Positions 8,171 through 30,231 of a stretch of 43,622 nucleotides of DNA are shown here, piece by piece. The notes below the pieces were generated by a model. That model searched no databases and was not told where the DNA came from. It saw nothing but the letters and a program-made list of their open reading frames with translations. The stretch comes from Gammaproteobacteria bacterium. Its GTDB lineage: Bacteria > Pseudomonadota > Gammaproteobacteria > S012-40. Numbering within the stretch: the stretch's first letter is position 1; every line of letters begins with the position of its first letter. Made by a program: the position numbers and the translations under genes. The stretch covers positions 850 to 44,471 of the forward strand of contig CAKKRP010000101.1 of the NCBI GenBank assembly GCA_919902765.1, in the 5' to 3' direction.

Positions 8171-8365
8171 TAATATTCTCCAGAATTGCGATAACCGCGT
8201 ATTGAGCCCGGCACTATATCTCTCCGTTGTTACAATCATATTTAAGCCGCTTTGACACATGGATTTAATTTCATTGTCACTTGTTCGACATACAACAAAT
8301 CTATTATTACGTCGGAATATTTTCTCTTGTAGGCGAATAACATCCGGCTGCGCTGTTACATTATC
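8171..8365. promoter_or_regulatory. Divergent promoter region between xrtD and the acyltransferase operon
   Basis: This 195-bp spacer separates the start of the minus-strand xrtD series from the plus-strand acyltransferase operon, so it should drive both. It contains a TTGTT-N8-AACAA inverted repeat at 8281-8298 and a shorter TTGTTACAA at 8227-8235. The first includes TACAACAA, also present in the palindrome upstream of the EpsA-like gene. I could not assign -10/-35 boxes with confidence. Confidence 0.4.
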
Positions 8366-9647: not shown

Positions 9648-10456
9648 TCTCTGTCGTCATACTGACAAAAAATGAAGAACAGGATTTGCCCGCCTGCCTA
9701 GAGTCCGTCGCCTGGAGCGATGACATTCATGTCTTCGACTCGTTTAGCACAGACAACACGGTTGATTATGCCCTGCGCGCCGGGGCGCATGTCACACAAC
9801 GTAAATTTGACAACTATGCGGCACAACGCAATGCCTCATTACACGAGATACAATTCAAATATGCTTGGGTATTGATCCTCGATGCCGATGAAAGGGTGCC
9901 TGACAGGTTAAGGCTGGAAATGATGCGTTTTATAGTCAGTCCGCCGCCCGGCGTGAGCGCCTGTAGGTTACGCCGCCGCGATTATTTCAACAATACCTGG
10001 CTTAAACACGCGCAACTCTCGCCGTATTACATAAGGCTGGTGCAACCAAACCGCGTTTATTATGAACGGGAAGTCAATGAGGTACTAAAAGTCGAAGGCA
10101 ATATCGTCGAACTGTCCGAGCCTTTTGATCATCATCCATTCTCAAAAGGCATGCGACATTGGCTGGACAAACATAATAGCTATTCGAGCATGGAGGCAAC
10201 ACTGGTCTTGGCATCGCGTCGCGGCAGTGTGCCGTTTTCAGTCCGGCGGGCTTTTTTTTGCAGCGATTTTAACGTGCGTAGATTTCACCAAAAAGAATTA
10301 TTCTATCGTCTTCCGCTACGCCCGGCGATTAAATTCTGTATAATATATTTTCTCCGGCGCGGTTTTCTCGATGGACGAGCGGGCCTCACCTATGCATTAC
10401 TCCAATCATTTTACGAATATATGATCGTGTTAAAAACACGCGAATATTTTAAATGA
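9644..10456 (+). CDS. Family 2 glycosyltransferase, WaaE/KdtX-like
   Basis: The protein is 270 residues from the ATG at 9644, the ATGA overlap with the methyltransferase stop; an upstream GTG at 9626 would add six residues. It shows the GT-A fold pattern of the WaaE/KdtX branch of GT2: ISVVILTKNEEQDLPACLES at the N-terminus, IHVFDSFSTDNT, then WVLILDADERV with the metal-binding DxD at about residues 84-86. It would add one sugar from a nucleotide donor to the growing lipid-linked unit on the cytoplasmic face. It is the last gene of the plus-strand operon and ends 14 bp from the converging end of the GT4 gene, with no terminator seen between them. Confidence 0.88.
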   Translation: MISVVILTKNEEQDLPACLESVAWSDDIHVFDSFSTDNTVDYALRAGAHVTQRKFDNYAAQRNASLHEIQFKYAWVLILDADERVPDRLRLEMMRFIVSPPPGVSACRLRRRDYFNNTWLKHAQLSPYYIRLVQPNRVYYEREVNEVLKVEGNIVELSEPFDHHPFSKGMRHWLDKHNSYSSMEATLVLASRRGSVPFSVRRAFFCSDFNVRRFHQKELFYRLPLRPAIKFCIIYFLRRGFLDGRAGLTYALLQSFYEYMIVLKTREYFK

Positions 10457-10470
10457 GGAATCTCGACCTG

Positions 10471-11715
10471 TTAACCGCCTTCGCGCACCAGATCTTTCAT
10501 CGTACCCAGGAATTTCCCCAATATCGCGTTATACCCGAGGTGCCGCTCCACATAGCGCCTCCCGTTATAACCCATGGTTTTACGCTGTACCTCCGCACCG
10601 TATAACAGTTTTATGGCGTCCGCCATGGTGACGGGATCTTCCGGTTCCACCACTAATCCGCTCGCCGACTCCGTTACCAGCCTTGCAAATTCACTATCCT
10701 GCGGCGCAGCCGCGATTAACGGCCGTTGACTTGCCATTATGTTGCAAATTTTGGATGGAAGCACAATGTCGTGTACACCTTTTTTTTGCGGCACCACCGA
10801 GACGTCTGCCGTGGCGAGCAAATCCGGCAGCCGTTCAAACGGCTGCACGCCGACAAAACGCACATTTTTCAACCCAAGCCGCAGCGCTTGCGTAGTTAGA
10901 CGATATTTTTCGCCACCCTCACCAACGATCACAAAAAAAATATTCCGCAATCCGTCGAGCAAAGCGGCCGCCTCTAACAATGTCCCCAATCCTTGTTTAA
11001 CACCCATGTTTCCAGCGTAGAGCACAACAAACGCACTGTCTGCCAGGCCCCACTCTTTGCGATATGCGGTATTGCTATCCTTTGGAATTATTTGCTCAGC
11101 GTTTGCCCAATTGGGAAAAATAAATACCTTGTCTTCTTGCACACCTTTATACACAATTTTTTTTCGCATACCTTCGCTAATCGTCGATACCCGATCCGCC
11201 AACCTATAAGTCCACCGCTCTAAGGTAAACAGCATGTTGACCATCCATCCAGGTTTCAACATACCCAGATCCACCGCTGCGTCAGGTTGCAAATCTTGCA
11301 CATGGAATATAACGCGGCTTTTTTTCAACTTGGCAATCAAGGTGACGGGCAGGCCTAAAACCAACGGCGGCCCGACCACGACGGTGCAATCAGCGCGGGG
11401 GCCGCATAGATAAGCTATAGATACTGAAAACACGAAACTCAATTCATGTAGCATACGCTTCCATGCGCTGGGCCGAGACGGCACATAAATGTAACTGCGT
11501 CGCAAATCTACGCCATTTCGTTGCTCACGCCTGTACCATACGCCTTGGTCCGGACGTTGTTTTTTCCACTGCGGATAGTAAGAAAATCCCGTATACACCG
11601 TCACCGGCGCTTCACGCGCGAAATGCTCAGCCATACCTGTCGTATAGACGGCTATACCCGTGAGCTCCGGCGCATAATTAATGGATATCACAGCGATTTT
11701 CAACTCAGCGTTCAT
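10471..11715 (-). CDS. Family 4 glycosyltransferase, WcaI-like
   Basis: The 414-residue GT-B enzyme starts with KIAVISINYAPELTGIAVYT, the signature of the WcaI group from colanic acid synthesis, and has the donor-binding half VLYAGNMGVKQGL (about 225-240), VGEGGEK and VVPQKKGVHDIVLPSK, where the conserved acidic residue usually seen in this group is replaced by a VHDIVLPSK loop. It probably transfers a hexose or fucose-type sugar onto the lipid-linked unit in the cytoplasm; donor and linkage are not readable. It is the last gene of the six-gene minus-strand operon and overlaps the polymerase gene by 11 bp. Its start codon directly follows a run of nine A belonging to the end of the polymerase gene, and no Shine-Dalgarno sequence is evident, so translation is probably coupled. 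Confidence 0.88.
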   Translation of the reverse strand: MNAELKIAVISINYAPELTGIAVYTTGMAEHFAREAPVTVYTGFSYYPQWKKQRPDQGVWYRREQRNGVDLRRSYIYVPSRPSAWKRMLHELSFVFSVSIAYLCGPRADCTVVVGPPLVLGLPVTLIAKLKKSRVIFHVQDLQPDAAVDLGMLKPGWMVNMLFTLERWTYRLADRVSTISEGMRKKIVYKGVQEDKVFIFPNWANAEQIIPKDSNTAYRKEWGLADSAFVVLYAGNMGVKQGLGTLLEAAALLDGLRNIFFVIVGEGGEKYRLTTQALRLGLKNVRFVGVQPFERLPDLLATADVSVVPQKKGVHDIVLPSKICNIMASQRPLIAAAPQDSEFARLVTESASGLVVEPEDPVTMADAIKLLYGAEVQRKTMGYNGRRYVERHLGYNAILGKFLGTMKDLVREGG

Positions 11716-12865
11716 ATGTTTTTTTTTCCATTGCTATGATCGTCAATATCGCCGCCGCGACCGCGATGTACATACGATGTATGCCAGCAAAGGGACTCAT
11801 TAACAAATCCCAAATACCCATCAATAAAAAAAACAGAAACATCGACGTATAGCTGTCCAATTTTCTGGTCAATGCGACAAATTTAACCTCTCTAAATAGC
11901 ATAAATCCGTACACTATAAAGAACACAACGCCCAACGCACCCCCTTCCATCCATGCCTGCAACACTTGCGAGTGCGGCGAAAACCCCTTTACGCCGGCTG
12001 CTTCGCCGTGGTTTACGCCTGATTTTGTCATTTCCGCGCGATATAACTTACTTAATTCTTTATTGTCCGACCAGGAGCCATATCCTAGCAACGGCGACTC
12101 TGTGATCGCTGTCAGCCCGACTTTTATGCCTACAGTGCGCCCTACGTTAGATTGCTCTCGTCTACTCCGATAATCGTCTTGCGTCAACATCAAGCCGATA
12201 AGCAGCGCCGCGCCCAAGAAAAGCGCGGGTAACATAATATTCAGCAGGCCTGTGCCGCGTAGCGCCGCGCCTGGATTGCCCGCCCTGGCCCAAGAAATTG
12301 CGGCAACCATTAAACATATGGTACCCAGCATCCGAAAATCGAACCAAATATTAATGAATGCCAGAGCCACTAAAATAGCGCTGTTTAGCCGCGCTGAAAA
12401 GTAGCGTCCCACCGCAATCACACTTAACACGACGGGTATACCGTATCCGAGCTTCCATTCTCTGAGGGGGGTGTGCGCGTCGAGCAGAAAAATGATGGCG
12501 CCTAACCCGCTACCCAATACAAACCACCAAAATATCCGTCTTTCGTAGGCCACCAGTACCGCTAACGCAAAAAAATCGCTTATCAACAGCGCGACACGTC
12601 CCCAGCCGCGTAGATATTGTCCTTGCACACCGTCCCGCGCCAGATCCGAAATGATATACCCGGCGACCATCAATATTAATGAAAAAATCAAAATCAAAAA
12701 TATTTTTTCTTTGAAAAGCGCATCGATATTGCGGGAAAAAAGCGCAGCAACGGCCATAGGCAACAACATTATCTCAGCCGCGTAGACCTCTCCAATGACG
12801 TTGAATTTATACGCGCTCAAGGCCCCGCAAATGAATACGGCGATACCCATAGGGGCGACTTTCAT
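11705..12865 (-). CDS. Wzy-like O-antigen/exopolysaccharide polymerase
   Basis: This 386-residue protein is almost entirely hydrophobic, with about ten membrane segments, and has a large periplasmic loop (about 230-300) ending in FSPHSQVLQAWMEGGALG, the characteristic H..(H/Q)..L..W...G..G pattern of the O-antigen ligase/Wzy_C superfamily. Inside an operon with a flippase and glycosyltransferases, its most likely job is polymerising lipid-linked repeat units at the periplasmic face of the inner membrane. A lipid A-core ligase cannot be excluded from sequence, but the locus context argues for a polymerase. It overlaps the upstream GT4 gene by 4 bp and the downstream GT4 by 11 bp. A run of nine A lies in its last codons (11719-11727). 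Confidence 0.85.
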   Translation of the reverse strand: MKVAPMGIAVFICGALSAYKFNVIGEVYAAEIMLLPMAVAALFSRNIDALFKEKIFLILIFSLILMVAGYIISDLARDGVQGQYLRGWGRVALLISDFFALAVLVAYERRIFWWFVLGSGLGAIIFLLDAHTPLREWKLGYGIPVVLSVIAVGRYFSARLNSAILVALAFINIWFDFRMLGTICLMVAAISWARAGNPGAALRGTGLLNIMLPALFLGAALLIGLMLTQDDYRSRREQSNVGRTVGIKVGLTAITESPLLGYGSWSDNKELSKLYRAEMTKSGVNHGEAAGVKGFSPHSQVLQAWMEGGALGVVFFIVYGFMLFREVKFVALTRKLDSYTSMFLFFLLMGIWDLLMSPFAGIHRMYIAVAAAILTIIAMEKKTYER

Positions 12866-14037
12866 GTGACCCGCTCGCGCTGTTGACGAATATTTATAAG
12901 AATATTTATCAATCGCTCTGATGAACTATTAATGTGAAACCGCTTTTCAAAACTCGCTCTAGCGTATTTCCTCATCAGGTCTTTTTCTTTCTGAGGCAGG
13001 GTGATCCATTGTTTTAATAGAGAGATCGTGCCTGCCAAGTCATCATTCGCAATCAGTCCGGCACCATCTGCCTCAATCTCTTTCCATATATTCACTTTAT
13101 TCGAGACCAACACCGGCACGCCGCGCGCCATCGCCTCGACAACGGATATTCCGAAATTCTCGTGATGCGACGGCAGCACGAATGCGTCCGCCGCGCTTAG
13201 CGCCCCCCATTTCACGCTTCCTGAAATCATCCCTGTCCAGGTGATACGGTCTTTAACAAGGAAATTATCCGCGATTTTTTTTGTCAGCTCCATTTTTATA
13301 TTGGAGTTATCAGGACCCGCGATTACCAAGTGCAGCGCGCTATCCAGGTGCGCTACTCTGGAAAATGCTTCGACTAACATATCGCACCCTTTGATGGGAT
13401 GTACGCGCCCTAGAAATAACACTATTTTCTTTTCCCGCAGTTGCGGGTATATATTATACAACTCACTGATCTGCGCGGCTGAATCTCCTGGCGGCTCCGC
13501 TATGCCGTACCCTGGCACCGCTTCTTTGCACTTGTATAACCAGAATGATTTACGTGCTTGTACGCGTTCCTCTTCGCAGGTGAATAACACCGCCGACGCG
13601 TCACGCAATACGCGATATTCCACCCACGGCCAGTACATCCATTTTTTTAAATGTTTCAACGGAAAGTTTTGCTTAAACCAAGGCCCCAGCATGCCATGCG
13701 TGTATATCACGTAAGGGATGTGATTTTTTTTTAAAACCCGCCATACCGTTAAACTGTGGTATTGCCATAGACCTTGCACCACAACGCTATCATAGTGGTG
13801 AGCATTTTTTTTTAGCCAAGGCCTTAGGTTCGGAGTGTAGCGGTATTTTCCATAGCATGGCCCTAGTGCATGCACCTTACAACAATAATTAATCAACCAA
13901 GGCGCACTCGGGTCATCCAACGTAACGATTTCTACGGTGTTCGATTTAGCCTGCGCGGCCATGCAAAATTGTCTTAGACCTTCTTGCGGTCCACCCGCTA
14001 TAGGATTCAATGAACTAATGACGTGAAGTATGCGCAT
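12862..14037 (-). CDS. Family 4 glycosyltransferase
   Basis: The 391-residue GT-B protein opens with MRILHVISSLNPIAGGPQEG, a nucleotide-sugar GT4 start with the glycine-rich loop. The C-terminal donor domain has KIVLFLGRVHPIKGCDMLVEAF (about 205-226) and FVLPSHHENFGISVVEAMA (about 280-300) with the conserved E..FG...EA motif, followed by GVPVLVSNKV. It should act as a retaining glycosyltransferase in repeat-unit assembly; donor and acceptor are not known. Two separate runs of nine A on the coding strand (near 13724-13732 and 13805-13813) encode KKN triplets, making this one of several genes here with slippery tracts. It lies 28 bp after the GT2 gene and overlaps the polymerase gene by 4 bp. 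Confidence 0.88.
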   Translation of the reverse strand: MRILHVISSLNPIAGGPQEGLRQFCMAAQAKSNTVEIVTLDDPSAPWLINYCCKVHALGPCYGKYRYTPNLRPWLKKNAHHYDSVVVQGLWQYHSLTVWRVLKKNHIPYVIYTHGMLGPWFKQNFPLKHLKKWMYWPWVEYRVLRDASAVLFTCEEERVQARKSFWLYKCKEAVPGYGIAEPPGDSAAQISELYNIYPQLREKKIVLFLGRVHPIKGCDMLVEAFSRVAHLDSALHLVIAGPDNSNIKMELTKKIADNFLVKDRITWTGMISGSVKWGALSAADAFVLPSHHENFGISVVEAMARGVPVLVSNKVNIWKEIEADGAGLIANDDLAGTISLLKQWITLPQKEKDLMRKYARASFEKRFHINSSSERLINILINIRQQRERVT

Positions 14038-14065
14038 GGAAGATTATCTCACCCTAACGATATTG

Positions 14066-14860
14066 TTATCCTGAAATAAAATATCTGACATGCCTGGCAA
14101 TATTTGCTTTATATGCGACTCGCAAAATATTTTTTACCACAGGCGGATACAGCGCTATCCCATGTGTGGCGATTTTTTTGGCCACCCGCCGGTGTTCTTC
14201 AAGAAATCTTTTATTGAACTTATTAGACCCCGTGATTGATTCACTGTAAATTCTGAAGTCGCCCAATATGTTGGGCACCGTCGCGAAGCGCGCGCCGCTC
14301 AACGCCATATCAACCAATAATTCACCATCCCACGTAATGCGATTATTTTTATTGAACCCCCCCGCCCGCCGGTAAGCCGCGCTCCTAAAAAAGGTTGCTT
14401 GTTGCCCTACCACGCAGATGCCCGCCGCGTAGCGCGCAAGATCGAACCTGTCGGCCGTCCTCTTGCGCAGCGAAGAATTACCGTTTTTATCGATAATTCC
14501 GATGGTGCCGCACAACACATCGACATCGGGGTGGGTGTCGAAATAGTGCGATACGAATTCAAGCGCGCCCCGCGAAAGCCTATCATCCGCATTGATATAT
14601 CCATAGATAGAGCCTTTGGCCCGGGCGAACCCCTTGTTTAATCCATCGGCCGGCCCCTCATCCGGCTCGGCAATAACATGCTCAATGTGCTCGGCATGGG
14701 CGCCAATGATGTCTCGGCTGCCATCCGTTGAACCCGCATCGACGACGACATATTCACGATTTACATAGTTTTGACCGATGACGGAATTTAGGCATTCTTC
14801 CAGATAGGCTGCTTGATTATATGAAATTGTCACGATAGATATTTTTTGAGATGCGGTCAT
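14066..14860 (-). CDS. Family 2 glycosyltransferase
   Basis: The 264-residue GT-A protein has KISIVTISYNQAAYLEECL at the N-terminus, YVVVDAGSTDGS (about 36-47) and the DxD-type motif YINADDR (about 91-97), with DEGPADGLNKGF before it. This arrangement is common in EPS and O-antigen glycosyltransferases. It probably transfers one sugar to the lipid-linked intermediate in an inverting reaction. It is the third gene of the minus-strand operon, 46 bp after the acyltransferase gene and 28 bp before the GT4 gene. The ATG at 14858-14860 is preceded by GGCAGATAAAAT, a modest ribosome-binding site. Confidence 0.88.
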   Translation of the reverse strand: MTASQKISIVTISYNQAAYLEECLNSVIGQNYVNREYVVVDAGSTDGSRDIIGAHAEHIEHVIAEPDEGPADGLNKGFARAKGSIYGYINADDRLSRGALEFVSHYFDTHPDVDVLCGTIGIIDKNGNSSLRKRTADRFDLARYAAGICVVGQQATFFRSAAYRRAGGFNKNNRITWDGELLVDMALSGARFATVPNILGDFRIYSESITGSNKFNKRFLEEHRRVAKKIATHGIALYPPVVKNILRVAYKANIARHVRYFISG

Positions 14861-14906
14861 ATTTTATCTGCCTGCTTGAATTTGATGGCTATAAGCGATG
14901 TGAACC

Positions 14907-15620
14907 CTAGGCGTCGATGCGGTCGGCATTTTCCACCTCACCAATTACTTTACGCAGATCATCTACCGTCCATGTTTCTTGCCTGGAAAAATGGGGCGCG
15001 ATCCGCGATAGCGTGTCTGCGCTCAAATCCCACCACTTCCAATCTTGCAATATTTCTATCACGTCCGGTGCAAACCTGCTTCCTATGGGCTTTGCGGGCA
15101 CCCCAGCAACGATTGAATAGTCCTCTACATTTTTGGTGACGACTGCACCCGCCGCGATGATTGCACCATTACCGACAACCACACCATCCATCACCATGGC
15201 GCGACTGCCGATCCATGTGTCATGACCTATGCGACACCCTTCTGCGGATTCGTTGAGTTTATCCGCGTATACGAAGGTATGGCCACATTGCTTACGTGTG
15301 GAAAAAAAGGCCGGATGGGTGCTTAGCCAGCGCACCGGATGCCGATAAAATCCCCCTATAAGAACATCTACCCCGATACTGCAAAAGGATCCGATATCGC
15401 TGTTGATAATTTTCGCATCGCCAATATACGTAAATCGACCGACACGCGATTTAATTACGGTCGTACGCGCATATAGCGTATTATATTCGCCAAAAACACT
15501 GTGTTTATCCACAAACGTCATCCAATTTGCACTGAATCCTTTATACATTTCCGCATACTTTTTTCTGCGTCTAACTATCCATGACACACGCCTAAAAAAA
15601 TTACTGTTCACAAATCTCAA
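14907..15620 (-). CDS. CatB-related (xenobiotic-class) O-acyltransferase in the EPS operon
   Basis: This 237-residue hexapeptide-repeat protein matches the CatB/Vat-type acetyltransferase layout: repeats from about residue 40 (YNTLYARTTVIKSRVGRFTY), the loop HPVRWLSTHPAFF with the active-site His, then CRIGHDTWIGSRAMVMDGV and the ending IVAGVPAKPIG. In an EPS operon it would acylate a sugar residue in the cytoplasm; this is the second acyltransferase of the locus. The start codon is TTG at 15618-15620, supported by GAGGA at 15628-15632 seven bases upstream, which lies just before the end of the flippase gene. The C-terminal 45 residues after the repeats are helical and charged, as in other members. 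Confidence 0.85.
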   Translation of the reverse strand: MRFVNSNFFRRVSWIVRRRKKYAEMYKGFSANWMTFVDKHSVFGEYNTLYARTTVIKSRVGRFTYIGDAKIINSDIGSFCSIGVDVLIGGFYRHPVRWLSTHPAFFSTRKQCGHTFVYADKLNESAEGCRIGHDTWIGSRAMVMDGVVVGNGAIIAAGAVVTKNVEDYSIVAGVPAKPIGSRFAPDVIEILQDWKWWDLSADTLSRIAPHFSRQETWTVDDLRKVIGEVENADRIDA

Positions 15621-15633
15621 ATCGGTATCCTCA

Positions 15634-17001
15634 TCACGCCCGCAGGCCGGACATCGCCATTCTGATATTTGACCATTGCGAGAATCCCGCGTGTGTCCAC
15701 ATACCTGTTTTTCTCTTCACCCAATACAGCGTCATCATTGCGTGCGTTACAGCGGCGGCGGCAGTGACCGCAGCAACACCTGGCGCTCCATATTCCCCGA
15801 CGACCGCGATGCCGCCCGCCACCAATAAGATTCCACAGATCACGCTAATCACCATAATTGATCGCTGATGGTTCGTCATCATCAACACAATCGCCCCGGA
15901 CCCGGCAAAAATATTAATCGCCTGCCCAAAACTTACCAGTATCAAAACAATCGCGCCGCTTTGATAATAGTGTCCGTACACCAGATTCAATATCGGTTCC
16001 GCCGCGAACACAAAGATCAGCGAGGCCGCAAACGCCGGCACTGCGGAAAGCAATGCAGCGGTACGCACGATACGCTCTAACTGGCGGATTTTTCCCTGCG
16101 CATACAGAGCGGAAATAATTGGCGGTATTACGGCATTGACGATAAGCATAGGCATCACAACGAGCTGCACTAAGCGCGCGGCGGCGCCGTATACAGCCAC
16201 CTCATCGCTATTCCTGTATGCGCCGATAATCCACAGGTCGATTTGTGTCACAAAAAAAATCGCCAGGCTGGTTATCATCAGCGGCCATCCCAGGCCAAGC
16301 ACTTCAGCGACCCTAACCCGCGTATCGCCGGCCATGCGCGCAATATGCCGTCGCATCGCTGCTGCGGCGACCACTACCAGAAAAGCGCTCAGCACTACGC
16401 ATAGCCACAATACCGATGAGAGACTGCACTTGCCTTGAATAAAAAAAACCGTCCCCAGAAATCCTAAAAGCAAAATGCTATGCGCGGGTCCGCCAAAAAT
16501 CGTCGCCAACCGGTAATCTTGTAATCCACGAAACGTTTCTGCCATCAGATTAAGTAATGTCAGCGCGACTATCCATGCCGCACCATACCAAATGGCGTCC
16601 TGCAATTGCTGTGGCGCACCGAAATGTTGCGTAAGTACCCGGCCCCCGATAGACCCGACCGCAAGCGCAACGATGCAAGCACCGATAACGCCTATTTTTA
16701 GCACCGCAAACACCGCGCCACGCGCACGCCCGCCCAACCCTTGCCCTAAGGCCTCGGATACCAATCTGACAACCGCTATTTGCAATCCCCATTGAGCGAC
16801 CGCAACGGCGGCCAGCACCAAACTCACCATCAGAAAATAAACACCCACGTCATGCGGCGATAGCAGACGCGCAATCAATATATTTACTGCGAAACCTGCC
16901 GGTGCGCCTATAATGCGGCCGACGAAGACCCACGCACCTCCGGATAACAACCGATGCATGAGCCATTCGGCGCCTAAATTATTTTTTGACATAAAGAACA
17001 T
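15634..17001 (-). CDS. Wzx-like flippase (MATE/oligosaccharide flippase superfamily)
   Basis: The 455-residue integral membrane protein has about 12-14 hydrophobic segments, starting with GGAWVFVGRIIGAPAGFAVNILIARLLSP, the typical first two helices of polysaccharide-biosynthesis Wzx proteins, with the conserved Arg in the second. It should flip undecaprenyl-pyrophosphate-linked repeat units to the periplasm. It is the first gene of the six-gene minus-strand operon, 13 bp before the acyltransferase gene, so the promoter should lie in 17002-17135. The ATG at 17001 or the one nine bases further in (16992) could start it; neither has a strong Shine-Dalgarno sequence. Two runs of eight T on the coding strand (near 16252 and 16441) fall in Phe-Phe codons. 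Confidence 0.88.
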   Translation of the reverse strand: MFFMSKNNLGAEWLMHRLLSGGAWVFVGRIIGAPAGFAVNILIARLLSPHDVGVYFLMVSLVLAAVAVAQWGLQIAVVRLVSEALGQGLGGRARGAVFAVLKIGVIGACIVALAVGSIGGRVLTQHFGAPQQLQDAIWYGAAWIVALTLLNLMAETFRGLQDYRLATIFGGPAHSILLLGFLGTVFFIQGKCSLSSVLWLCVVLSAFLVVVAAAAMRRHIARMAGDTRVRVAEVLGLGWPLMITSLAIFFVTQIDLWIIGAYRNSDEVAVYGAAARLVQLVVMPMLIVNAVIPPIISALYAQGKIRQLERIVRTAALLSAVPAFAASLIFVFAAEPILNLVYGHYYQSGAIVLILVSFGQAINIFAGSGAIVLMMTNHQRSIMVISVICGILLVAGGIAVVGEYGAPGVAAVTAAAAVTHAMMTLYWVKRKTGMWTHAGFSQWSNIRMAMSGLRA

Positions 17002-17135
17002 TCAGCGATCATATCTAATGAATATGACAATTTCGGGACTAATCGCACCGCCATATCCCCGCGTTATTGTTACGTCACAAATATGCAACGCACCTGGCGT
17101 ATAGTCGTCGGTTTATATGGTTGTGCTGAGGTCTT
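17002..17135. promoter_or_regulatory. Divergent promoter region between the flippase operon and the exported hydrolase-like gene
   Basis: This 134-bp spacer should carry promoters for both directions. It contains a near-perfect 14-bp palindrome, TTGTTACGTCACAA at 17067-17080, with one mismatched pair out of seven. This resembles a half-site arrangement of CRP/FNR-type or other dimeric regulators, but no regulator can be named. The position between two EPS transcription units makes an operator plausible. Confidence 0.4.
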
Positions 17136-20100
17136 GTGCGAAATATAGGCTGTCTATCGGCGCGACACGCTACGTCTACGCATAGTGGAATTCGAACGCT
17201 ACCAAAACGTATTACCTTCGTTACTATTTTGTTCATATTCTCGAGTTATGCGCATGCGCAATCTACTCCTGCGTGGATTGGCGCGCGATCTGCAAACAGT
17301 TTTAATCGACACTTTATCACTACACCGCGCGATCTCGAAAAAATTATTAAATATGACTCCCTCGAACACGCCATCGGGTGGTTTGAATATGATATTGAGA
17401 TCCCGCAAACAGGTTGGTATGAATTGGAGACCTTGGGCTCAGGCGCAGGCGTTCAATACTATTTTGATATAGACAAAAACAATTCAACCTCTCCATGGCA
17501 TTATTACGGTAGCAACGGACTGTTAGCTGGTCACGACAAGATTGGAAATGTCTGGCTCACTACGGGGCCGCATCGTGTGCGCGTAGAACGCTATTATTGG
17601 ACTGGATTCCCGCCGATCTCCGGTTTAATTTTGAAGCGCAGTACCGAGGCACTAGAAAAAACAATTCATGTGGCGCTGCCGTCGTCTACGCGCACTTTTC
17701 GTTCTGGTGCGTGCCCTCAGATGGATATCTATGTGGGCCGGAGAAATCGCGCCACGACTATGACCGTCAAAATCGATAATTCCGCGACCCGCGCATTGCT
17801 AAGCACCATATCGATACCGATTGCGGTCAGCGATCATCTGACTAAACTACAGGCCTCATTGCCTTGCATTACCGAAGGTAGTTATCGCGTTACATTTTCT
17901 GAATTGCTCAGCGCAATGCCGCAACGTGATGTGCCTACCCTCACCTATGAAGTCATTGAAACAAATGCACCCGTTGCTGCGACCCGCGCACCTGATGCCG
18001 CGCTGGTGCAAGATATCGATTGTACGAGCGTGCCACCGGATTATTTCGATGGCGGCGCGACGCAGGTGATAAAAAAACAATTTGGTGCATATCGTGAATC
18101 CGGAGATATCGGGTGGACGCGTTTCCAACGCATGCCAGAGGTGCTGCGTAAAATCGCGCCCAATCCCAGTTGGTTTGCATATCGAATAAACGGTTTGGTG
18201 CCACAGCACGGATATCGAGTCGAAGTGGATTACCCTGACGATGCTTTGCGTACCTTCGCAATCGCGCTGCGTGAAGCAGAGCCGCTGTCGTACCCGGTTG
18301 CCGGAGGCGTCGATAGCGGTGGCGAATTTTCACTTACACATACCATGCAGACGCATACATTGTATTTTTGGCCAAGAACAAGCGATGTACGTATTGTATT
18401 TATGACCGCGCACAACCGCATGCGCGCCGCCGCGTCACGCGTACGTATATACCGCCTGGCGGGGGATTTACTCCCGCTCGCGCCGCCTGGTGGCCGCCAC
18501 TTTATCAATTGGTACGAGGAAGGCGACAATTATCAAAGCATGTACGGAGTACCTAACGCTGATACCGATGCAATGCGCGATGCAAATCGCATAGGCGTGG
18601 AACGTTGGGCAAAAGCGGCGGGTTATCGCGGTGTGAATGTGCTCTCACCGACTGTCTCTATTTATCATTTCAGTCTATATCCGTCCCGGTTCAACCTGAC
18701 ATTTACGTCTTCGCCTCATGACGATAGCTTGCAACGTATCTTGCTGATGAGTGAAAAATACGGTCTGAAAGTTCTGCCTGAAATACATCCTAGGGCGGAC
18801 GAACTGGCGTGGCCGAACACCGACACGAGTCACACAGCGGCGAATTTACTGGTCAACAAGAATGGAGAGACAAATTATTTTTCTACGGACAAAAAAAAAC
18901 GCAATTATCCCCCGTATTACAACCCCGTCTTCCCGGCAAATCAGGATTGGTACGTGGGCATGGTTGGGGAGTTGGCCGACCGTTTCAAAGATTCACCCGC
19001 TTTGCTGGGTATCAATCTGCGTCAAATGAACTGGGTTAACGCCTCGCTAAACAATTTTGTGTCCTTGGACTGGGGCTATGACGATTTTACTGTTGCGTTA
19101 TTTCAACAAGACACCGGCATTAAGTTACCGGCAACGATGTCATCGGATGCGCCTTTTCCGCTGGTAGTCAAGGCACGAGTGCGTTATAAATGGCTGATGT
19201 CGCATGCGCGCGAACAATGGATAGCCTGGCGCTGCAACAAAATCGCGCAGCTTTATGCGCGCATACGCGACCGCATCCAACTGGCGCGACCGGATTTAAA
19301 GCTATTTTCCTCCGTATTCGCCCGGACCGGCTCATCCTCCGGTCACGACGCGCTACGCGGTGCCGGTATCGACCCCCGCTTATTAACGCACATTAAAGGT
19401 GTAGTGTTGATCAATGCACTACACACCTATGGAAGGCGTGATACGCTTGAGGTTGCTAACCGGCAGGTGCGCGATCAACTTGTGGATGCCAACAATTTGC
19501 ATGCACTGTATACGCCGCCGGCGTCCGGTGCATTCCTGAATTCCGCCAACTATTTGGAGGCCACCGGTGTCGTAGCGACCAATGTCGCGTTGGGATTTCC
19601 AGCGTCCACCAAGACAACTTGGACCAGTGCCGCAGCCACCCCCGCTGGGCGGCATTTTTTGGAACGTTATGCCATCCAACTTGCAGAAACGGATGCCACC
19701 TGGTTGGGCGACGGAGGCAATGCCTATTCGCTGGGACAAGCGGAATTGGGAGACTTTATGCGCGAATATCGCGCCCTTCCCGATACCCCCTTTAGTCTGC
19801 GGGCCGATGCGCGCGATCCCATCGCCGTGTGGGAGTTACGGCGTGCCCACGACTATTTATTTTATGCGGTCAATCGAGAACGTTATCGCGTTAAGATACA
19901 AATACAGATTCAAGGTAGCGGCGCGATACGGCGATTATCCAACGGCGAATACGTTGCCCGCCCCAACGGCGTCTTGGAACTGGATTTGATGCCTTATCAA
20001 CTGCTCGCGTTTATAGCGCCCGAGACGGTCGCAATTTCCACGATAATTACTTTTGTTTCTCCTGAAATTAAAGACCTTATAAAAATACAAGTGCAGTGGC

Positions 20101-20318
20101 TAACATTATTACGCGCGGAAATTGAAGGCCAAGTGGCGTTTCCGTCGCTGAATAAACATCAACGTATGATTTTGAAAAAATATGCTACCGAGACGGGCAC
20201 AGCGTTACGCCATCGACAGTGGTGGCGGGCGCGCGCACTCCTAGAAAATCATGAGTTGCTTGATATTTATGACACACTGAATCGTCGCCCGCCAAAACTC
20301 CGCAACAATGACTCGTAA
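17136..20318 (+). CDS. Large exported protein with carbohydrate-binding-like and TIM-barrel glycoside-hydrolase-like regions
   Basis: The 1060-residue product has a signal peptide with an extended N-region, ending near FSSYAHAQS (about residue 42). About 45-170 look like a beta-sandwich carbohydrate-binding module (WYELETLGSG; TTGPHRVRVERYYW). A second beta region follows (about 300-445). From about 445 to 860 the pattern suggests a TIM barrel of the GH42/GH10-like clan: VERWAKAAGYRGVNVLSP, LMSEKYGLKVLPEIHPR, DSPALLGINLRQMNW and EQWIAWRCNKIAQLYARIRD. The end is helical and charged. I cannot assign catalytic acids or a family. Such periplasmic hydrolases in EPS loci (for example PslG) trim or release polymer, which is the likely role here. 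The start is GTG at 17136 with GAGG just upstream. The gene stands alone, divergent from the flippase operon and convergent with the kinase gene. Confidence 0.72.
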   Translation: MRNIGCLSARHATSTHSGIRTLPKRITFVTILFIFSSYAHAQSTPAWIGARSANSFNRHFITTPRDLEKIIKYDSLEHAIGWFEYDIEIPQTGWYELETLGSGAGVQYYFDIDKNNSTSPWHYYGSNGLLAGHDKIGNVWLTTGPHRVRVERYYWTGFPPISGLILKRSTEALEKTIHVALPSSTRTFRSGACPQMDIYVGRRNRATTMTVKIDNSATRALLSTISIPIAVSDHLTKLQASLPCITEGSYRVTFSELLSAMPQRDVPTLTYEVIETNAPVAATRAPDAALVQDIDCTSVPPDYFDGGATQVIKKQFGAYRESGDIGWTRFQRMPEVLRKIAPNPSWFAYRINGLVPQHGYRVEVDYPDDALRTFAIALREAEPLSYPVAGGVDSGGEFSLTHTMQTHTLYFWPRTSDVRIVFMTAHNRMRAAASRVRIYRLAGDLLPLAPPGGRHFINWYEEGDNYQSMYGVPNADTDAMRDANRIGVERWAKAAGYRGVNVLSPTVSIYHFSLYPSRFNLTFTSSPHDDSLQRILLMSEKYGLKVLPEIHPRADELAWPNTDTSHTAANLLVNKNGETNYFSTDKKKRNYPPYYNPVFPANQDWYVGMVGELADRFKDSPALLGINLRQMNWVNASLNNFVSLDWGYDDFTVALFQQDTGIKLPATMSSDAPFPLVVKARVRYKWLMSHAREQWIAWRCNKIAQLYARIRDRIQLARPDLKLFSSVFARTGSSSGHDALRGAGIDPRLLTHIKGVVLINALHTYGRRDTLEVANRQVRDQLVDANNLHALYTPPASGAFLNSANYLEATGVVATNVALGFPASTKTTWTSAAATPAGRHFLERYAIQLAETDATWLGDGGNAYSLGQAELGDFMREYRALPDTPFSLRADARDPIAVWELRRAHDYLFYAVNRERYRVKIQIQIQGSGAIRRLSNGEYVARPNGVLELDLMPYQLLAFIAPETVAISTIITFVSPEIKDLIKIQVQWLTLLRAEIEGQVAFPSLNKHQRMILKKYATETGTALRHRQWWRARALLENHELLDIYDTLNRRPPKLRNNDS

Positions 20319-20355: not shown

Positions 20356-21189
20356 TCACTTAAATCGCCGCATGAGACGTGAAACACGTCCGATTTTTCG
20401 TCCCGGAATTTCGTTAATAACGTCACCGTTTACCGTCACCACCTTGGGTCTAACGATGTCCCGATGCGCATTTGATGTATCTATATGCGCAGTGCTGCGC
20501 GACTTGTTCAATACCGTCCCTAGCAAATGTGTACCACCCAACATCTGCACCGCTCGTTCGATATCGTCGCCGACGGTCACACCCTCTTCAACCACGAGTA
20601 AGGCCGCATCGACAAAGGGCGAAAAAGCCAACGCGTCGGCCGTGGACAGCAATGGAGGCAGATCAAACACGACAAGCCGCTCGGGATAACGCATTTTTAG
20701 TTCCTGCACCAACTCCGACATACGGCGCGAACTCAGCATTTCCGCCGAATTTTGCAACGCCCGCCCGCCGGGCAATACCACGAATCCATTTACACCGGGA
20801 TTGATCAATATCTTTTCTAAGGCGACACCGTCGATCAGATATTCACTCAACCCCGGCCCGGGAGGCAAACTGAGATAATCGCGCACAGCGGGCGCTCGCA
20901 TATCCGCATCGACCAGGAGCACGGTCTGCTCAATCTCCGCCGCCATACTCATCGCCGTATTAATCGCAACCAGCGTTTTTCCTTCACCTGCGGAGGCGCT
21001 GGTGACCGCCAACGCATTCCAACGGTTGGCGCGCATTCTTTGTAAAACTTGAGTACGCAGCATCTTGAACGCCATGGTATACGCGTCATTTCCTGTGCCG
21101 TTGATGATGCGTTTTTCGCCCATCGCGTGCGGCAACAAACGACAGCTACGCGTCGATGAGTAGACGATTTTTTTTTCAGACTGAAACAT
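20356..21189 (-). CDS. epsG: CpsD/CapB-family tyrosine-kinase ATPase (EpsG-like)
   Basis: The 277-residue protein is a stand-alone BY-kinase-type P-loop ATPase: Walker A SASAGEGKTL (about 65-74), Walker A' VLLVDADMR (about 92-100) and Walker B VVFDLPPLL (about 173-181). It would act with the Wzc-like membrane protein encoded immediately upstream, which ends 2 bp before this gene starts, to control chain length and export by phosphorylation cycles. The C-terminal tail has no Tyr cluster, only basic residues (GRVSRLMRRFK), so autophosphorylation on a Tyr tail as in Wzc/CapB is not evident. A run of nine A at 21168-21176 lies within codons 5-8, where slippage would abolish almost the whole protein. 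Confidence 0.88.
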   Translation of the reverse strand: MFQSEKKIVYSSTRSCRLLPHAMGEKRIINGTGNDAYTMAFKMLRTQVLQRMRANRWNALAVTSASAGEGKTLVAINTAMSMAAEIEQTVLLVDADMRAPAVRDYLSLPPGPGLSEYLIDGVALEKILINPGVNGFVVLPGGRALQNSAEMLSSRRMSELVQELKMRYPERLVVFDLPPLLSTADALAFSPFVDAALLVVEEGVTVGDDIERAVQMLGGTHLLGTVLNKSRSTAHIDTSNAHRDIVRPKVVTVNGDVINEIPGRKIGRVSRLMRRFK

Positions 21190-21191
21190 TT

Positions 21192-22946
21192 CTATACCCA
21201 GGTTAGTTTACGGGCCAATACGTACCAAAGCACATCCAACGGCATAAAATAAATATGAATAATAATCGCTCCACCCACCAATATCGCCAACGATGCTGCG
21301 AGCCGTGCGCGCTTTTTTAATGTGTTACGCGCTTTTTCTCGAATATTTTCTGTGTAAGGTATAGTCGCCAAAACGGGTGCGGCGACCTTTGCCGACAACA
21401 TTTTCGCATCGCGTATCGTATCATCCAAGGATTCCTGTACGCTGGCAAAGCCTAGCGCACCGCCTAAGGCCAAGACAAAGCTTAATAGCAGGATGGCGAG
21501 GCGATTTGGACTATGGGGTTTCTCCGGGTATTCCGGCGGCTCGATCAACGAAAAACGCTCGCCCTTACGATCTTTCTCCAACTCTTGAGCGACCTGCGCC
21601 TCCAATTCCTTTTCCCGTATCTCTTTATACTTTACTAGCGCATTATCGTGCGCGCGCGCCAGATCCAGATATTCTCGTTCGACCTGCGGCGTTTCCAACA
21701 AACGCCTCTCATAGGACTCGAGTTTTTCGATTAAATTTTTGCGTAACTTATTTTGTCCTTCCAGTTCATTAGTGACCGAGTGTAATTGCGCCTGAAAGGT
21801 TAGATAAAGCGGATTGTCCGGTGCGCTGTCGGACGCCAGCGTTAATTTATCCTCATTTATAGCGTCTTTCCCGCTTTCTTCCAACGCCAGAATCGCCTTT
21901 TTCAACCTAACCACATCCGGATGACTACTGGAATATTTTTGTAAGGCTGCGGCTAAATCCGCCTGCAACTTGACCATCTGTGCGCCGATCTTACCGTCGC
22001 CGCTGCCATTTTTTCCTACGACTCTCTGCAAGCCTTCGATCTCCTGACGCATCCTCACCATATCGGGGTGATCAGGCGAATACACGCCGGATTGCGTTGC
22101 ATATCGCACCTTCAAAAATCGCAAACGTGCCACCGGGCCTAACGTCGGCTCGCCCGCAACGCCGCCACTGGCGCTATTTGGTTCGATTTTAGCCAATTCC
22201 GCTTGCAAATAAATTTTGCGCTCCTCCAAACTGACCAATTTCTGATCCAGAGCCATCAGTTCGGAATCGGTTCTATCCCTGAGCTGCATGTTAAGTTGTG
22301 ATAATTCAGGCAATCTGCCGATATTTTTTTCCTTGAATTCGGCAACCTTGGTTTCTATCGCCGCCAGGTCTTGACTCAATTTTATGGATGCGTCGGAAAG
22401 AAACGAAGAGGTCTCCGCCGCCTTATTGCGGCGGTTTTTTAGATTTTCATCGAGATAGAGCGATACCAATTCGCTAGCGACTTTTTGTGTCGCCGCTGGA
22501 TTCTCCCCGTCATACGATAGTGTAAACGCAATCGTCGCGCTGATACGCGATCCACTACGCCTATCCGTGACATCTGCGGTAACAGGATTCAATTTAATGT
22601 CTTTGCGCATGCGTTCCAGTATGTCTTCACTGGTCTCGTGCCGACGTTTTTTTGCATATAGACCGTATTTGTCTACCAAGCCCATCAGAATAGCGCGCGT
22701 CATGATTTGTTGGCTAATCACCTGCATACGTTCATCTGCAAAACTGGTAATTGTAGAGCGCACCATCTCAGGCGGGATTTCTTGTTCCTCGATCAGGATG
22801 GTGGCGGTGGAACGATACACCGCAGGCAGCAAAAACGCAACCGCCGCGCCTATAGCAAACAGCGTCCCGGCGACTAACAACATTGCCGTCTTGCGACGCC
22901 GGAGGATGCCAACATAGTCTAACGTATGATTAGGAGTTTCCTGCAT
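21192..22946 (-). CDS. epsF: Wzc/EpsF-like polysaccharide chain-length determinant protein
   Basis: The 584-residue polysaccharide co-polymerase has a first membrane segment at about 21-43 after LDYVGILRRRK, a Wzz domain (YRSTATILIEEQEIP), a long periplasmic coiled-coil region (about 150-460) and a closing PxxP-type segment PPEYPEKPHSPNRLAILLLSF leading into the second membrane segment. Here the C-terminus continues with further hydrophobic stretches (to WYVLARKLTWV) rather than a kinase, which is the separate downstream gene. Two SPDHPDMVRMRQEIEGL / SSHPDVVRLKKAILAL repeats near 290 and 340 are typical of the family. It sets chain length together with Wzy, kinase and the Wza-like protein. 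A 176-bp gap with a hairpin separates it from the upstream barrel gene. Confidence 0.9.
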   Translation of the reverse strand: MQETPNHTLDYVGILRRRKTAMLLVAGTLFAIGAAVAFLLPAVYRSTATILIEEQEIPPEMVRSTITSFADERMQVISQQIMTRAILMGLVDKYGLYAKKRRHETSEDILERMRKDIKLNPVTADVTDRRSGSRISATIAFTLSYDGENPAATQKVASELVSLYLDENLKNRRNKAAETSSFLSDASIKLSQDLAAIETKVAEFKEKNIGRLPELSQLNMQLRDRTDSELMALDQKLVSLEERKIYLQAELAKIEPNSASGGVAGEPTLGPVARLRFLKVRYATQSGVYSPDHPDMVRMRQEIEGLQRVVGKNGSGDGKIGAQMVKLQADLAAALQKYSSSHPDVVRLKKAILALEESGKDAINEDKLTLASDSAPDNPLYLTFQAQLHSVTNELEGQNKLRKNLIEKLESYERRLLETPQVEREYLDLARAHDNALVKYKEIREKELEAQVAQELEKDRKGERFSLIEPPEYPEKPHSPNRLAILLLSFVLALGGALGFASVQESLDDTIRDAKMLSAKVAAPVLATIPYTENIREKARNTLKKRARLAASLAILVGGAIIIHIYFMPLDVLWYVLARKLTWV

Positions 22947-23057
22947 CTTTTGATATCAATCTATAAGAGTGATCGGCAACCGCATAGCAGCGGAGAAGTT
23001 ACCCGGCCTCGCCAAACCGTGACCTAGGTGATACGCGCTACATCATATACCGCGATT

Positions 23058-23075
23058 CCGCAACAAAAGTTGCGG
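23058..23075. terminator. Candidate hairpin between the barrel gene and the chain-length gene
   Basis: CCGCAAC (23058-23064) and GTTGCGG (23069-23075) form a perfect 7-bp stem with an AAAA (or TTTT) loop in the 176-bp spacer 22947-23122. It is not followed by a clear T-run on either strand, so it may be a factor-dependent terminator, an RNA-processing or attenuation site, or an operator. It marks the only large gap inside the export gene series. Confidence 0.4.
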
Positions 23076-23122
23076 TTCTATTGCTATTTAGTGACAGTCC
23101 GCAGGTGCGCCAAGCGCGCCGT

Positions 23123-24364
23123 TCAATGTCGCCTAGACCCGAAGTTTTTGTGTCCGTCATAACGTAACCCGGCAAATATCGCGTTGGCGATTATCGTCGC
23201 GCCGCTGTCATAATGTAATCTCGCTCTCCGTACCCCTGATTCCAGACTCCACGCCTCTTTAAAATTCCATCTCAATAGCGGTGACACCGCATAATAGCGG
23301 CTGTTGTTTATAGTTTGGGTCCCCGCCGAATATTTCGAACGGTAAACAGACGCATCTAACGTTAAATCAAGCTTTGCAAACCACTGCGTAGAAATATAGA
23401 TCATCAACTTATCAGTTTGTGCAATGGCGCCGGCCCCGCTTGGACTAATACTGCGGTCGAATTTCGTCTGTATTTTTGTAGCGTCCGTGAGCTTGCCCTC
23501 TATCATCGCGCCACCTGAATATCCCCTAGCCGGAAACTGGCGCGTAACGGTGGTTTTTTCATATGCCATCAATCCAAAATAGCACTCGTAAATCCGCCCT
23601 GGACAATAGCTTATATCCTGATGCACCGTAGTTGACGTTCGATACTCGCCAACATTTAGCGTTCCCGCTAAACGTTCAGTAAATTTTTGTGAAAACCCGA
23701 TAAGGGCATTATAACCTTTTGAGGCGATTTCGGTGTGGCGGGTGCGGTATTGAAAGTAGTTTATACTTGCGTTGGCGGTGCCCATGGAAGAATATTGGTA
23801 ACCGACATCTGCATTCAGCGTTTTATTTTGATAATTAAACAATCCGTTATACATGCCCGCACCGTAACTGACATCGGTTAGACCATACCCGATATTGAGC
23901 GCGACACGCTCGGTAAGCGAGAATTGCCATGTGGGATTCATGCTCAGGCTATTACGTTCGGCATCTGCCAAAATAACACCCGCGCCGGTCTGCGCATTGG
24001 CAAGTGTAGAATCACGCACCGCTGCGATATCAATACCACCCCGATATCGTTCACCGGAATAAATTGCGATGACTGAAAACCGCGGATCTATGCGGTGATT
24101 TCGATTTTCACCCGCATAACTATTTGCAGCGGCGCCCCCGGTAGCCGCGATAGACCAACGATCCGCCTTATTGGCCACCGCTACCGAGGGATACAGTACG
24201 TTGACCCATTCCGCACGATGCGGCAGCGTCGAAAATCGATAGTTATCATTATATTCCGTGCGCGACGAGGCGGTAAATTGCGAGTACCATTCATTCGCGT
24301 GCGCAGCGGCTGCGGGAATTAAAAACGCCAGCGTCGCCACGTTAAATAACGGTATGTTGGCCAT
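23123..24364 (-). CDS. Outer-membrane beta-barrel protein of the EPS export operon (EpsL-like)
   Basis: The 413-residue protein has a signal peptide ending near AAAAHA (about residue 23) and then alternating aromatic/polar strands throughout, for example AIYSGERYRGGIDIAA, WQFSLTERVALNIGYGL and YYAVSPLLRWNFKEAW, as in porin-like barrels. Barrel proteins of this size next to the Wza-like gene are the EpsL or 'PEP-CTERM outer-membrane beta-barrel' group in methylotroph and related EPS loci. It may help export polysaccharide through the outer membrane; its role is unproven in that family. It begins 5 bp after the Wza-like gene with AAAAGG close to the ATG, so the two are surely co-transcribed. 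The C-terminus ends in basic residues rather than a terminal Phe. Confidence 0.78.
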   Translation of the reverse strand: MANIPLFNVATLAFLIPAAAAHANEWYSQFTASSRTEYNDNYRFSTLPHRAEWVNVLYPSVAVANKADRWSIAATGGAAANSYAGENRNHRIDPRFSVIAIYSGERYRGGIDIAAVRDSTLANAQTGAGVILADAERNSLSMNPTWQFSLTERVALNIGYGLTDVSYGAGMYNGLFNYQNKTLNADVGYQYSSMGTANASINYFQYRTRHTEIASKGYNALIGFSQKFTERLAGTLNVGEYRTSTTVHQDISYCPGRIYECYFGLMAYEKTTVTRQFPARGYSGGAMIEGKLTDATKIQTKFDRSISPSGAGAIAQTDKLMIYISTQWFAKLDLTLDASVYRSKYSAGTQTINNSRYYAVSPLLRWNFKEAWSLESGVRRARLHYDSGATIIANAIFAGLRYDGHKNFGSRRH

Positions 24365-24369
24365 GCCTT

Positions 24370-25023
24370 TTACGGCACGATCAATACATCGCCGCCCTTG
24401 AGCGGTATGTTTTGATCCAGGCTGTCGCCATTTTCCACTTGCGAATAGAAGAACGGGATCGCCAGTTCTCGATCACCGTTCCGGCGCAAAATTTTGATGG
24501 CGTTTTTTTCCGCAAAGGGCGTAAGCCCCCCGGCCATCGCCAACGCTTGCAGCACATCGACATATCGACCGGCGGAAAACTCGCCCGGGCGATTCACTTT
24601 GCCCAACACATACACTTTATTGCTCAGCACTTTGACCACCGCCACCGACACCACCGGATCCGGAATATATTTTTCCAGCGCCTTCGCAACTTCTTGCTCC
24701 AATATTTTAGGCGTTTTTCCGGCGGCTACCAGCGTTCCAACCAACGGAAAAGAAATTCCGCCGTCAGGCCTCACTACGATTTCTTTTTTTAGCCCCTCTT
24801 CCTTCCAAACGGTAATTTCCAGAATATCTTCCGCGCCAATCCGATATTCTCCCTGCACCGCCGGCAATTCCTTATGCACAGCCGCCAAGCGGCTGGACGC
24901 GGGAGGTACAGGCGGCCATGTACTCCATTCATCGCCTTCGTCCATCGTACCCCCCAACGCCAACAACGGGGGCGCGCAGGCCAGCCCCAATAATATTCGA
25001 TATAGCGCCCCGTTGATTGACAT
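24370..25023 (-). CDS. epsE: Wza/EpsE-like polysaccharide export protein (Poly_export and SLBB domains)
   Basis: Using the ATG at 25021-25023, which is preceded by TTGGAG, the protein is 217 residues; the open frame to 25059 adds 12 unlikely ones. After the signal peptide, the Poly_export domain (about 60-140) reads YRIGAEDILEITVWKEEGL and VRPDGGISFPLVGTLVAAGKTP, followed by the SLBB segment KVYVLGKVNRPGEF and LQALAMAGGLTPFA (about 155-185). It should form the periplasmic/outer-membrane export channel working with the Wzc-like protein. Its signal region contains LLGLACAPP, which is not a canonical lipobox (Gly at -3), so lipidation as in Wza is uncertain. It heads the export genes and is 74 bp downstream of the coiled-coil gene of the TPS/Ton block. 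Confidence 0.88.
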   Translation of the reverse strand: MSINGALYRILLGLACAPPLLALGGTMDEGDEWSTWPPVPPASSRLAAVHKELPAVQGEYRIGAEDILEITVWKEEGLKKEIVVRPDGGISFPLVGTLVAAGKTPKILEQEVAKALEKYIPDPVVSVAVVKVLSNKVYVLGKVNRPGEFSAGRYVDVLQALAMAGGLTPFAEKNAIKILRRNGDRELAIPFFYSQVENGDSLDQNIPLKGGDVLIVP

Positions 25024-25097
25024 ATACACTCCAAAATAAATTTTTACTACTGCAAACATTTCGTGCCCGTCATAAACGCCGCCATCAGCCTAAACCG

Positions 25098-25748
25098 TCA
25101 CTCCTTGGCAAGCTGATTTTCCAATTTTTCTTTGTACTCTTCGACTATGCCGTATTCCTTAACTTGCTGTATTTTCGTGATCGGCTCGGATAACAGCAAT
25201 ACTTCCAGCAACCCTTTATCTCGATATAATTTTAGGATTTCGTTGTTAATATTATAAAGCGCTACATTTTTCTTTTCACATTGATCTAGTGTTTTAGTAC
25301 GTTGCAGCACCAGCCCTTCCGACTGCTTGCGTCTATTCTCCACGTCCTCCAGTTGCGCGCGCAACTGGTCTAAATCCTTTAACATCCCTGACTGCTTAAT
25401 CTGCTCGCCATCCAGTTTTGTTTTTAATTCCTCGCTGGCGTGCCGCAATGCGTCCATTTGCGCGTTTAGCTCTGCTTTTTCCTTGCTGTTTTGCAGATCG
25501 GATTTTTTTTGTTTGTCCAACTGCGCCGTCAGGCGCGCGACGGTTTGTTCCAGGGCCGATTTTTCGGTCTCTAGCCGCAACTTTTCTTGCGCATTTTTCT
25601 GTTGCACCAATTGCATTCTGCGCAAGGCCTCACGCTCACGGGAACTTCCGTCTGCGGCATCCGCCGCAGAGGGTGTCAGCATCCATACCAACACAACGGG
25701 CAGGCATGCCATGAAAACGCTATATTTGCCGCCGATTTTTGTTCTCAT
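25098..25748 (-). CDS. Periplasmic coiled-coil protein of the TPS/Ton operon
   Basis: The 216-residue product has a signal peptide (hydrophobic core about 10-25, ending near SAADAA) and then one long heptad-rich coiled coil (about 38-160), rich in Glu, Lys, Gln and Leu, with repeated LRLETEKSALEQTVARL-like heptads. After a QCEKKN segment with the only mature-region Cys comes a conserved-looking globular tail: NINNEILKLYRDKGLLEVLLL and KIQQVKEYGIVEEYKEKL. I do not recognise a named family. The gene follows the porin gene by 17 bp and has an excellent AAAGGAG site, so it belongs to the same transcript. A periplasmic spacer linking the inner-membrane ExbBD/TonB complex to outer-membrane parts is a reasonable guess. 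Confidence 0.75.
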   Translation of the reverse strand: MRTKIGGKYSVFMACLPVVLVWMLTPSAADAADGSSREREALRRMQLVQQKNAQEKLRLETEKSALEQTVARLTAQLDKQKKSDLQNSKEKAELNAQMDALRHASEELKTKLDGEQIKQSGMLKDLDQLRAQLEDVENRRKQSEGLVLQRTKTLDQCEKKNVALYNINNEILKLYRDKGLLEVLLLSEPITKIQQVKEYGIVEEYKEKLENQLAKE

Positions 25749-25765
25749 CGCGATCTCCTTTCACC

Positions 25766-27250: not shown

Positions 27251-27266
27251 GGATTGTCGTTCCTTG

Positions 27267-27929: not shown

Positions 27930-27951
27930 CGCGCGCGCCCTTCCGTACGAC

Positions 27952-30130: not shown

Positions 30131-30231
30131 ATTCCAATCCAGCGTTCATCCACAAGAAAAAGCATCGTAAAATCTATTTATCGGTCCATTATAGTAAGCC
30201 AATGTTGCAAATATATGATGCATGCCTGCAT

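Follow-up and report, generated by a model that had tools for sequence, protein, structure and literature searches.

The window, the whole 43,622-nucleotide stretch of DNA analyzed here, encodes in its exopolysaccharide locus an exported protein of 1060 residues (positions 17136–20318, + strand), for which homology to the GHL10 superfamily is shown at the sequence level. The protein and its three relatives form, as far as their alignments tell, a rare GHL10 subfamily of their own with an altered catalytic position. By analogy with known systems, it is on balance probably a dedicated periplasmic glycoside hydrolase (GH)-like enzyme with a rearranged active site, which processes the polymer of the adjacent Wzx/Wzy module. 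The reason why exopolysaccharide loci carry their own glycosidases is debated even for PslG, a glycosidase-type protein encoded within the locus of its polymer (PMC9075953); here, bacteria far apart from one another share a protein family that accompanies the repeat-unit genes of one polymer, and the export hardware varies between them.

Gene, product, and relatives

The open reading frame begins with a GTG codon with GAGG upstream, and homologues that align across most of its length show it to be a real gene. It is present as a single copy in the source genome, with a GC content (51%) similar to that of the neighboring genes. A signal peptide (residues 1–42; 17136–17261, +), KRITFVTILFIFSSYAHA, is evident on reading the sequence, with cleavage likely after AHA and before QS, and the homologues from Neorhizobium galegae and Burkholderiales also have hydrophobic N-terminal leaders; the exported protein of 1060 residues announced in the preliminary description was thus recovered as such. 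The same description named a carbohydrate-binding-like N-terminal domain, of which the predicted strands stood, at low confidence, and the name found no counterpart in any library; this β-rich domain (residues 45–180; 17268–17675, +), a possible carbohydrate-binding module, is 29–34% identical to the homologues. A second β-rich domain (residues 291–450; 18006–18485, +), delineated by predicted strands and homologue comparison, is the best-conserved region of the protein (45–50% identity), and is followed by the TIM-barrel-like domain (about residues 451–890; 18486–19805, +). The C-terminus (…NRRPPKLRNNDS) consists of predicted helices and has neither the VPLPA motif nor the membrane segment and basic tail of VPLPA-CTERM proteins; for want of such a sorting signal, an exosortase-sorted surface enzyme was rejected.

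The gene is the sole + strand gene between two minus-strand blocks (10471–17001 and 20356–30130), and indeed lies, as first described, on its own strand, with the assembly genes on one side and the export genes on the other. The first block contains the assembly genes for a WcaI-like GT4, Wzy, GT4, GT2, a CatB-like hexapeptide acetyltransferase, and the Wzx flippase (15634–17001, −). Among these, the repeat-unit genes for Wzy, GT4, GT2, and the CatB-like acetyltransferase (11705–15620, −) are common to the loci of the relatives and not to other XrtD loci, while the stretch of a WcaF-like acetyltransferase, a methyltransferase, and a GT2 (+), followed by the WcaI-like GT4 (−) (8366–11715), is common to the relatives and some XrtD loci. 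The exosortase XrtD is encoded at 6590–8389 (−; TIGR04152, 553 bits against a cut-off of 400), and the export genes for a tyrosine kinase, a chain-length determinant, an outer membrane protein, and a Wza-like export protein occupy 20356–25059 (−). In the 134-bp gap (17002–17135) separating the gene from the divergent wzx, no promoter-like match above chance was found, and the promoter and terminator scans in general gave matches at or below chance level.

Ordinary scans with the window sequence, which covered the genomes of 56 near relatives, 369 genomes of the class, and the collections of plasmids, genome contigs, and viral contigs, gave no homologue; the weak matches L002 and L003, being short and partial, were set aside as chance. 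Further scans of viral contigs were likewise negative. Three relatives emerged from a motif-steered scan (A3 of the alignments A1–A4), in which artificial rows only steer the choice of motifs, carry no evidence of conservation, and were used nowhere else: one in a Burkholderiales metagenome-assembled genome (MAG; L111, with the N-terminal half on a separate contig, L121), one in N. galegae DS1499 (L112), and one in Prosthecomicrobium hirschii (L113). All three stood up to a tblastn search with the genuine window sequence and to a comparison of the full proteins, and are 33–40% identical over the aligned parts and 42–48% in the barrel core. The P. hirschii homologue (L113, 9001–11425), from a draft genome, is split across two reading frames, and is therefore either broken (a pseudogene) or mis-sequenced. 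Since a profile of the four sequences gave no further convincing member in 398 genomes of the phylum, 160 + 160 of the orders, and 41 of the genus (partly overlapping sets), with a single weak partial match (G554; E-value, 8e-7), the family is rare, and is patchy even inside the genus of N. galegae; this distribution is compatible with horizontal transfer.

Barrel domain and active site

GHL10 (PF02638) was the sole Pfam match up to an E-value of 10 (E-value, 4.7e-9; residues 513–726; 36.2 bits against the curated cut-off of 27.9), and the same profile scored the homologues L112 and L113 at 25.4 and 26.4 bits, slightly under that cut-off. No NCBIfam match and no Pfam match to a deacetylase domain were obtained for the protein, and sequence searches of the PDB gave none or only chance matches. 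On the other side of the comparison, hhalign aligned the barrel of the family (A6) with five GHL10 proteins (A7) at a probability of 98.0 (E-value, 2.8e-13). The full-length AF2 model built from four sequences (pLDDT, 51.5; pTM, 0.37) is too weak for domain-level claims; the barrel-only AlphaFold model (pLDDT, 54.7; pTM, 0.63), also of low confidence, has its strands in the (βα)-barrel order. With this low-confidence model, Foldseek retrieved from the PDB members of GH14, GH35, GH42, GH5, and GH164, and Cwp19 (E-values, 4e-5 to 6e-4), the top matches being all glycosidase barrels, at TM-scores of 0.2–0.43 and large root-mean-squared deviations. A TIM-barrel-like fold of residues ~451–890, noted as a pattern in the preliminary description, is hence supported, short of proof, by the Pfam and hhalign matches and, at model level, by the strand order and fold matches. 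That description left the protein outside any defined GH family, where it also stays in our hands, as a divergent relative of its only Pfam match.

In the hhalign alignment, the invariant strand-4 Asp of GHL10 aligned with Arg629 (codon, 19020–19022, +), which is invariant in the family, and the hmmsearch alignment of L111 independently places an Arg at this position. Strand 4 reads GINLRQM, including Arg629, and lacks the acid that GH42 and other clan A families have at the strand end. The alignments show the family to have lost the strand-4 catalytic acid, and the protein is regarded as a divergent relative rather than a canonical member of GHL10 because of the pairing of this Asp with Arg629. 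The Asp in question is Asp196 of Cwp19, equated with Asp466 of Escherichia coli PgaB by Bradshaw and colleagues (PMC5765458); in Bordetella PgaB, Asp474 is the probable catalytic acid (PMC5933820).

A pair of acids at the ends of strands 4 and 7 had been anticipated, of which at most the strand-7 half was recovered: strand 4 bears the invariant Arg, and Glu808 (codon, 19557–19559, +), placed at the end of strand 7 by the low-confidence model, is present in three of the four sequences, the exception being the frame-split copy of P. hirschii, which has a Gly. Further conserved segments with acids are W(Y/N)EEG of strand 1 (Glu461 and Glu462), PE.HPR(A/S)DEL of strand 3 (Glu549, Asp555, and Glu556), the strand-4 loop (an acid at 645, and Asp649), and GDGGN of strand 8 (Asp859). 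In barrel enzymes, the active site is located on the loop face. When the boundaries of the loop side were set by hand from the strands of the model, 50 of 150 positions on the β–α loop side were invariant versus 44 of 268 elsewhere (Fisher p = 1.3e-4). This enrichment, within the accuracy of the model, argues for an active site retained rather than decayed.

Both Cwp19 of Clostridioides difficile (PMC5765458; PMC6016235) and DigH of E. coli (PMC12288456) are GHL10 proteins acting on peptidoglycan. The window protein resembles them in being exported and in having a barrel of the same superfamily, with Cwp19 among the fold matches of the low-confidence model, but differs in the invariant Arg replacing the strand-4 catalytic Asp, in having Glu rather than Gly close to the strand-7 end (three of four sequences), and in its large additional N-terminal domains and exopolysaccharide context. 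The nearest fold neighbor of the Cwp19 structure is PgaB (PMC5765458), the C-terminal domain of which (GH153) is likewise a barrel encoded in a polymer-export locus; in contrast to PgaB, the window protein has no equivalent of Asp474 (through the Cwp19–PgaB correspondence, PMC5765458), no deacetylase domain, and a Wzx/Wzy instead of a synthase pathway. With PslG (GH39) it shares the coding of a glycosidase-type protein in the locus of its own polymer, but a GH39 match or detectable homology is absent and size and layout are different, so that the likeness drawn earlier holds as a functional analogy between proteins of unrelated layout. The GH42, GH35, GH14, GH164, and GH5 enzymes, the top fold matches of the barrel model, have their strand-7 Glu at the strand end, where the low-confidence model puts Glu808 of the window protein; they differ from the window protein in that it has no sequence match to them and no strand-4 acid, at TM-scores of only 0.2–0.4.

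Comparable in context are two XrtD loci of other genomes. An exported canonical LamG plus GHL10 protein (L048, 3757–5550) adjoins Wzy (2354–3733) in G148, and an exported canonical GHL10 protein (L056, 8399–9511) adjoins Wzy (9546–10844) in G351. Both are, like the window protein, exported GHL10-superfamily proteins in an XrtD polysaccharide locus, but they retain the catalytic Asp within a DYxR motif and are smaller, and a direct comparison detected no relationship to the window protein. Judging from these two loci together with that of the window, GHL10-superfamily barrels have apparently come to lie near wzy on more than one occasion. The L056 locus also has a heparinase II/III-like gene. 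Some other matches to the GHL10 profile in genomes of the class were read as likely mimics, namely GH36-like α-galactosidases (L083, L087, and L092) and PgaB (L085). In L079 and L093, from other genomes of the class, a GHL10 domain was read after a polysaccharide-deacetylase-like stretch, in a PgaB-like layout.

Neighboring genes and proposed function

All four family members, the only cases behind the neighbor-gene association and each located through the protein itself, occur in polysaccharide loci that have repeat-unit genes in common. In direct comparison with the window proteins, the N. galegae locus scored 334 bits for GT4, 221 for WcaI, 212 for GT2, 201 for the CatB-like acetyltransferase, 122 for WcaF, and 115 for GT2b; the P. 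hirschii locus, 295 for GT4, 181 for GT2, 153 for WcaF, 141 for the methyltransferase, 119 for GT2b, and 53 for Wzy; and the Burkholderiales MAG locus, with RmlA/RmlB-like genes and Wzx nearby, 248 for the tyrosine kinase and 223 for Wzy. The N. galegae gene is located directly downstream of a wzx–acetyltransferase–wzy–GT2–acetyltransferase run, in the same direction, and overlaps its last open frame. No counterpart of the window XrtD was recognized in the flanks of the relatives. The 1060-residue protein was absent from 40 upstream flanks of other XrtD loci of the same class (several of them short, at contig ends), in which the tyrosine kinase, Wzc, and Wza are often common and WcaF, the methyltransferase, GT2b, and WcaI are found in some; these flanks contain no Wzy relative, and their best scores are at most ~42 bits for GT4, 100 for GT2, and 62 for the acetyltransferase. 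The recurrence of the repeat-unit genes beside the relatives and the 40 flanks devoid of the protein suggest that it is tied to the polymer, its apparent partners being the repeat-unit genes and not the exosortase or export part. The link to the locus polymer, made originally from the window, is firmer now, because relatives in other bacterial groups have the same repeat-unit genes. The same 40 flanks, and the failure to recognize an XrtD counterpart near the relatives, also led us to reject a role as part of the XrtD system. Partial repeat-unit modules without this type of protein also exist: Azospirillum TSH100 has related GT2 and Wzy without a relative of the protein, and a plasmid of N. 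galegae HAMBI 1141 has the acetyltransferase alone of the module. As the family follows the repeat-unit genes while export differs, its substrate should be predictable from the neighboring genes.

The export signal is visible in the protein, and we infer the periplasmic location, substrate, cleavage, and catalytic residues of the following scheme. The protein would be exported by Sec, mainly to the periplasm, and there meet the polymer after flipping by Wzx and polymerization by Wzy. Its N-terminal β-rich domains may bind the nascent or finished exopolysaccharide, and the barrel cleft would most likely cut or trim it, by analogy with PslG and PgaB, thereby limiting chain length or clearing stalled chains. 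Catalysis, if any, would depend on Glu808 of strand 7 and/or the acids of strands 1, 3, and 8 together with the long strand-4 loop. Counted in favor of such a processing enzyme are the Pfam and hhalign matches to GHL10, the polysaccharide loci around all four members, including the overlap with the wzx–wzy run in N. galegae, the enrichment of invariant residues on the loop face, the glycosidase fold matches, and the canonical GHL10 proteins beside wzy elsewhere; counted against it are the missing strand-4 acid, the Gly at position 808 in P. hirschii, the weak models, and the GT2 and Wzy of Azospirillum without the protein. We tentatively raise the possibility that the family is a new GH family specific to one Wzx/Wzy exopolysaccharide, in which catalysis has shifted off the strand-4 acid, and which spreads with the repeat-unit genes between distant bacteria.

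Because of Arg629, a non-hydrolytic guide stays a live alternative: a catalytically dead barrel could bind the polymer in the periplasm and, as a chaperone or scaffold, couple the output of Wzy to export through Wzc/Wza. The invariant Arg in place of the catalytic Asp, a strand-7 Glu that is not invariant, and a conservation peak in the β-rich domain of residues 291–450 rather than in the barrel would all suit this role, but the many invariant acids and aromatic residues on the catalytic face are unlike simple decay, and the export genes are not among the conserved partners; we consider it rather doubtful, though worth keeping in view. A transglycosylase-like activity, by which the polymer would be cut and joined to another glycan or a surface protein, would fit with the exosortase of the window locus, the substrates of exosortases being surface proteins, and transfer could perhaps be supported by the strand-7 Glu in a rearranged site; it is nevertheless improbable, with no counterpart of the window XrtD recognized in the flanks of the relatives. 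Most unlikely is a peptidoglycan hydrolase opening the cell wall for export, as suggested by Cwp19 and DigH, the best-studied GHL10 proteins, for its partners are particular repeat-unit genes, not the export part, and the catalytic Asp of GHL10 is lost. Between the preferred processing enzyme and a guide, the Asp-to-Arg exchange at the catalytic position offers a sharp test of whether the polymer is cut or merely guided; if cutting is true, the protein would be a candidate polymer-specific biofilm-dispersing enzyme.

Genes adjoining the export block

Adjoining the export genes, the stretch of 25769–40128 (−) encodes a Porin_5 protein, a TonB-like protein, a small ORF, an ExbB/TolQ-type channel protein with a DUF2341 and a lectin-like LamG domain, and a filamentous-haemagglutinin-type protein of 3298 residues. 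The gene for the last (30235–40128, −) has a GC content of 61% (70% at third positions), compared with about 47–54% for the polysaccharide genes, and adjoins a ShlB/FhaC-type two-partner secretion transporter gene (40146–41729, −). The porin, TonB, small ORF, and ExbB–LamG genes occur in identical order by an XrtD locus in G327 (L072), where the next frame spans at least 2801 residues, and the first three of them likewise by an XrtD locus in G130 (L061).
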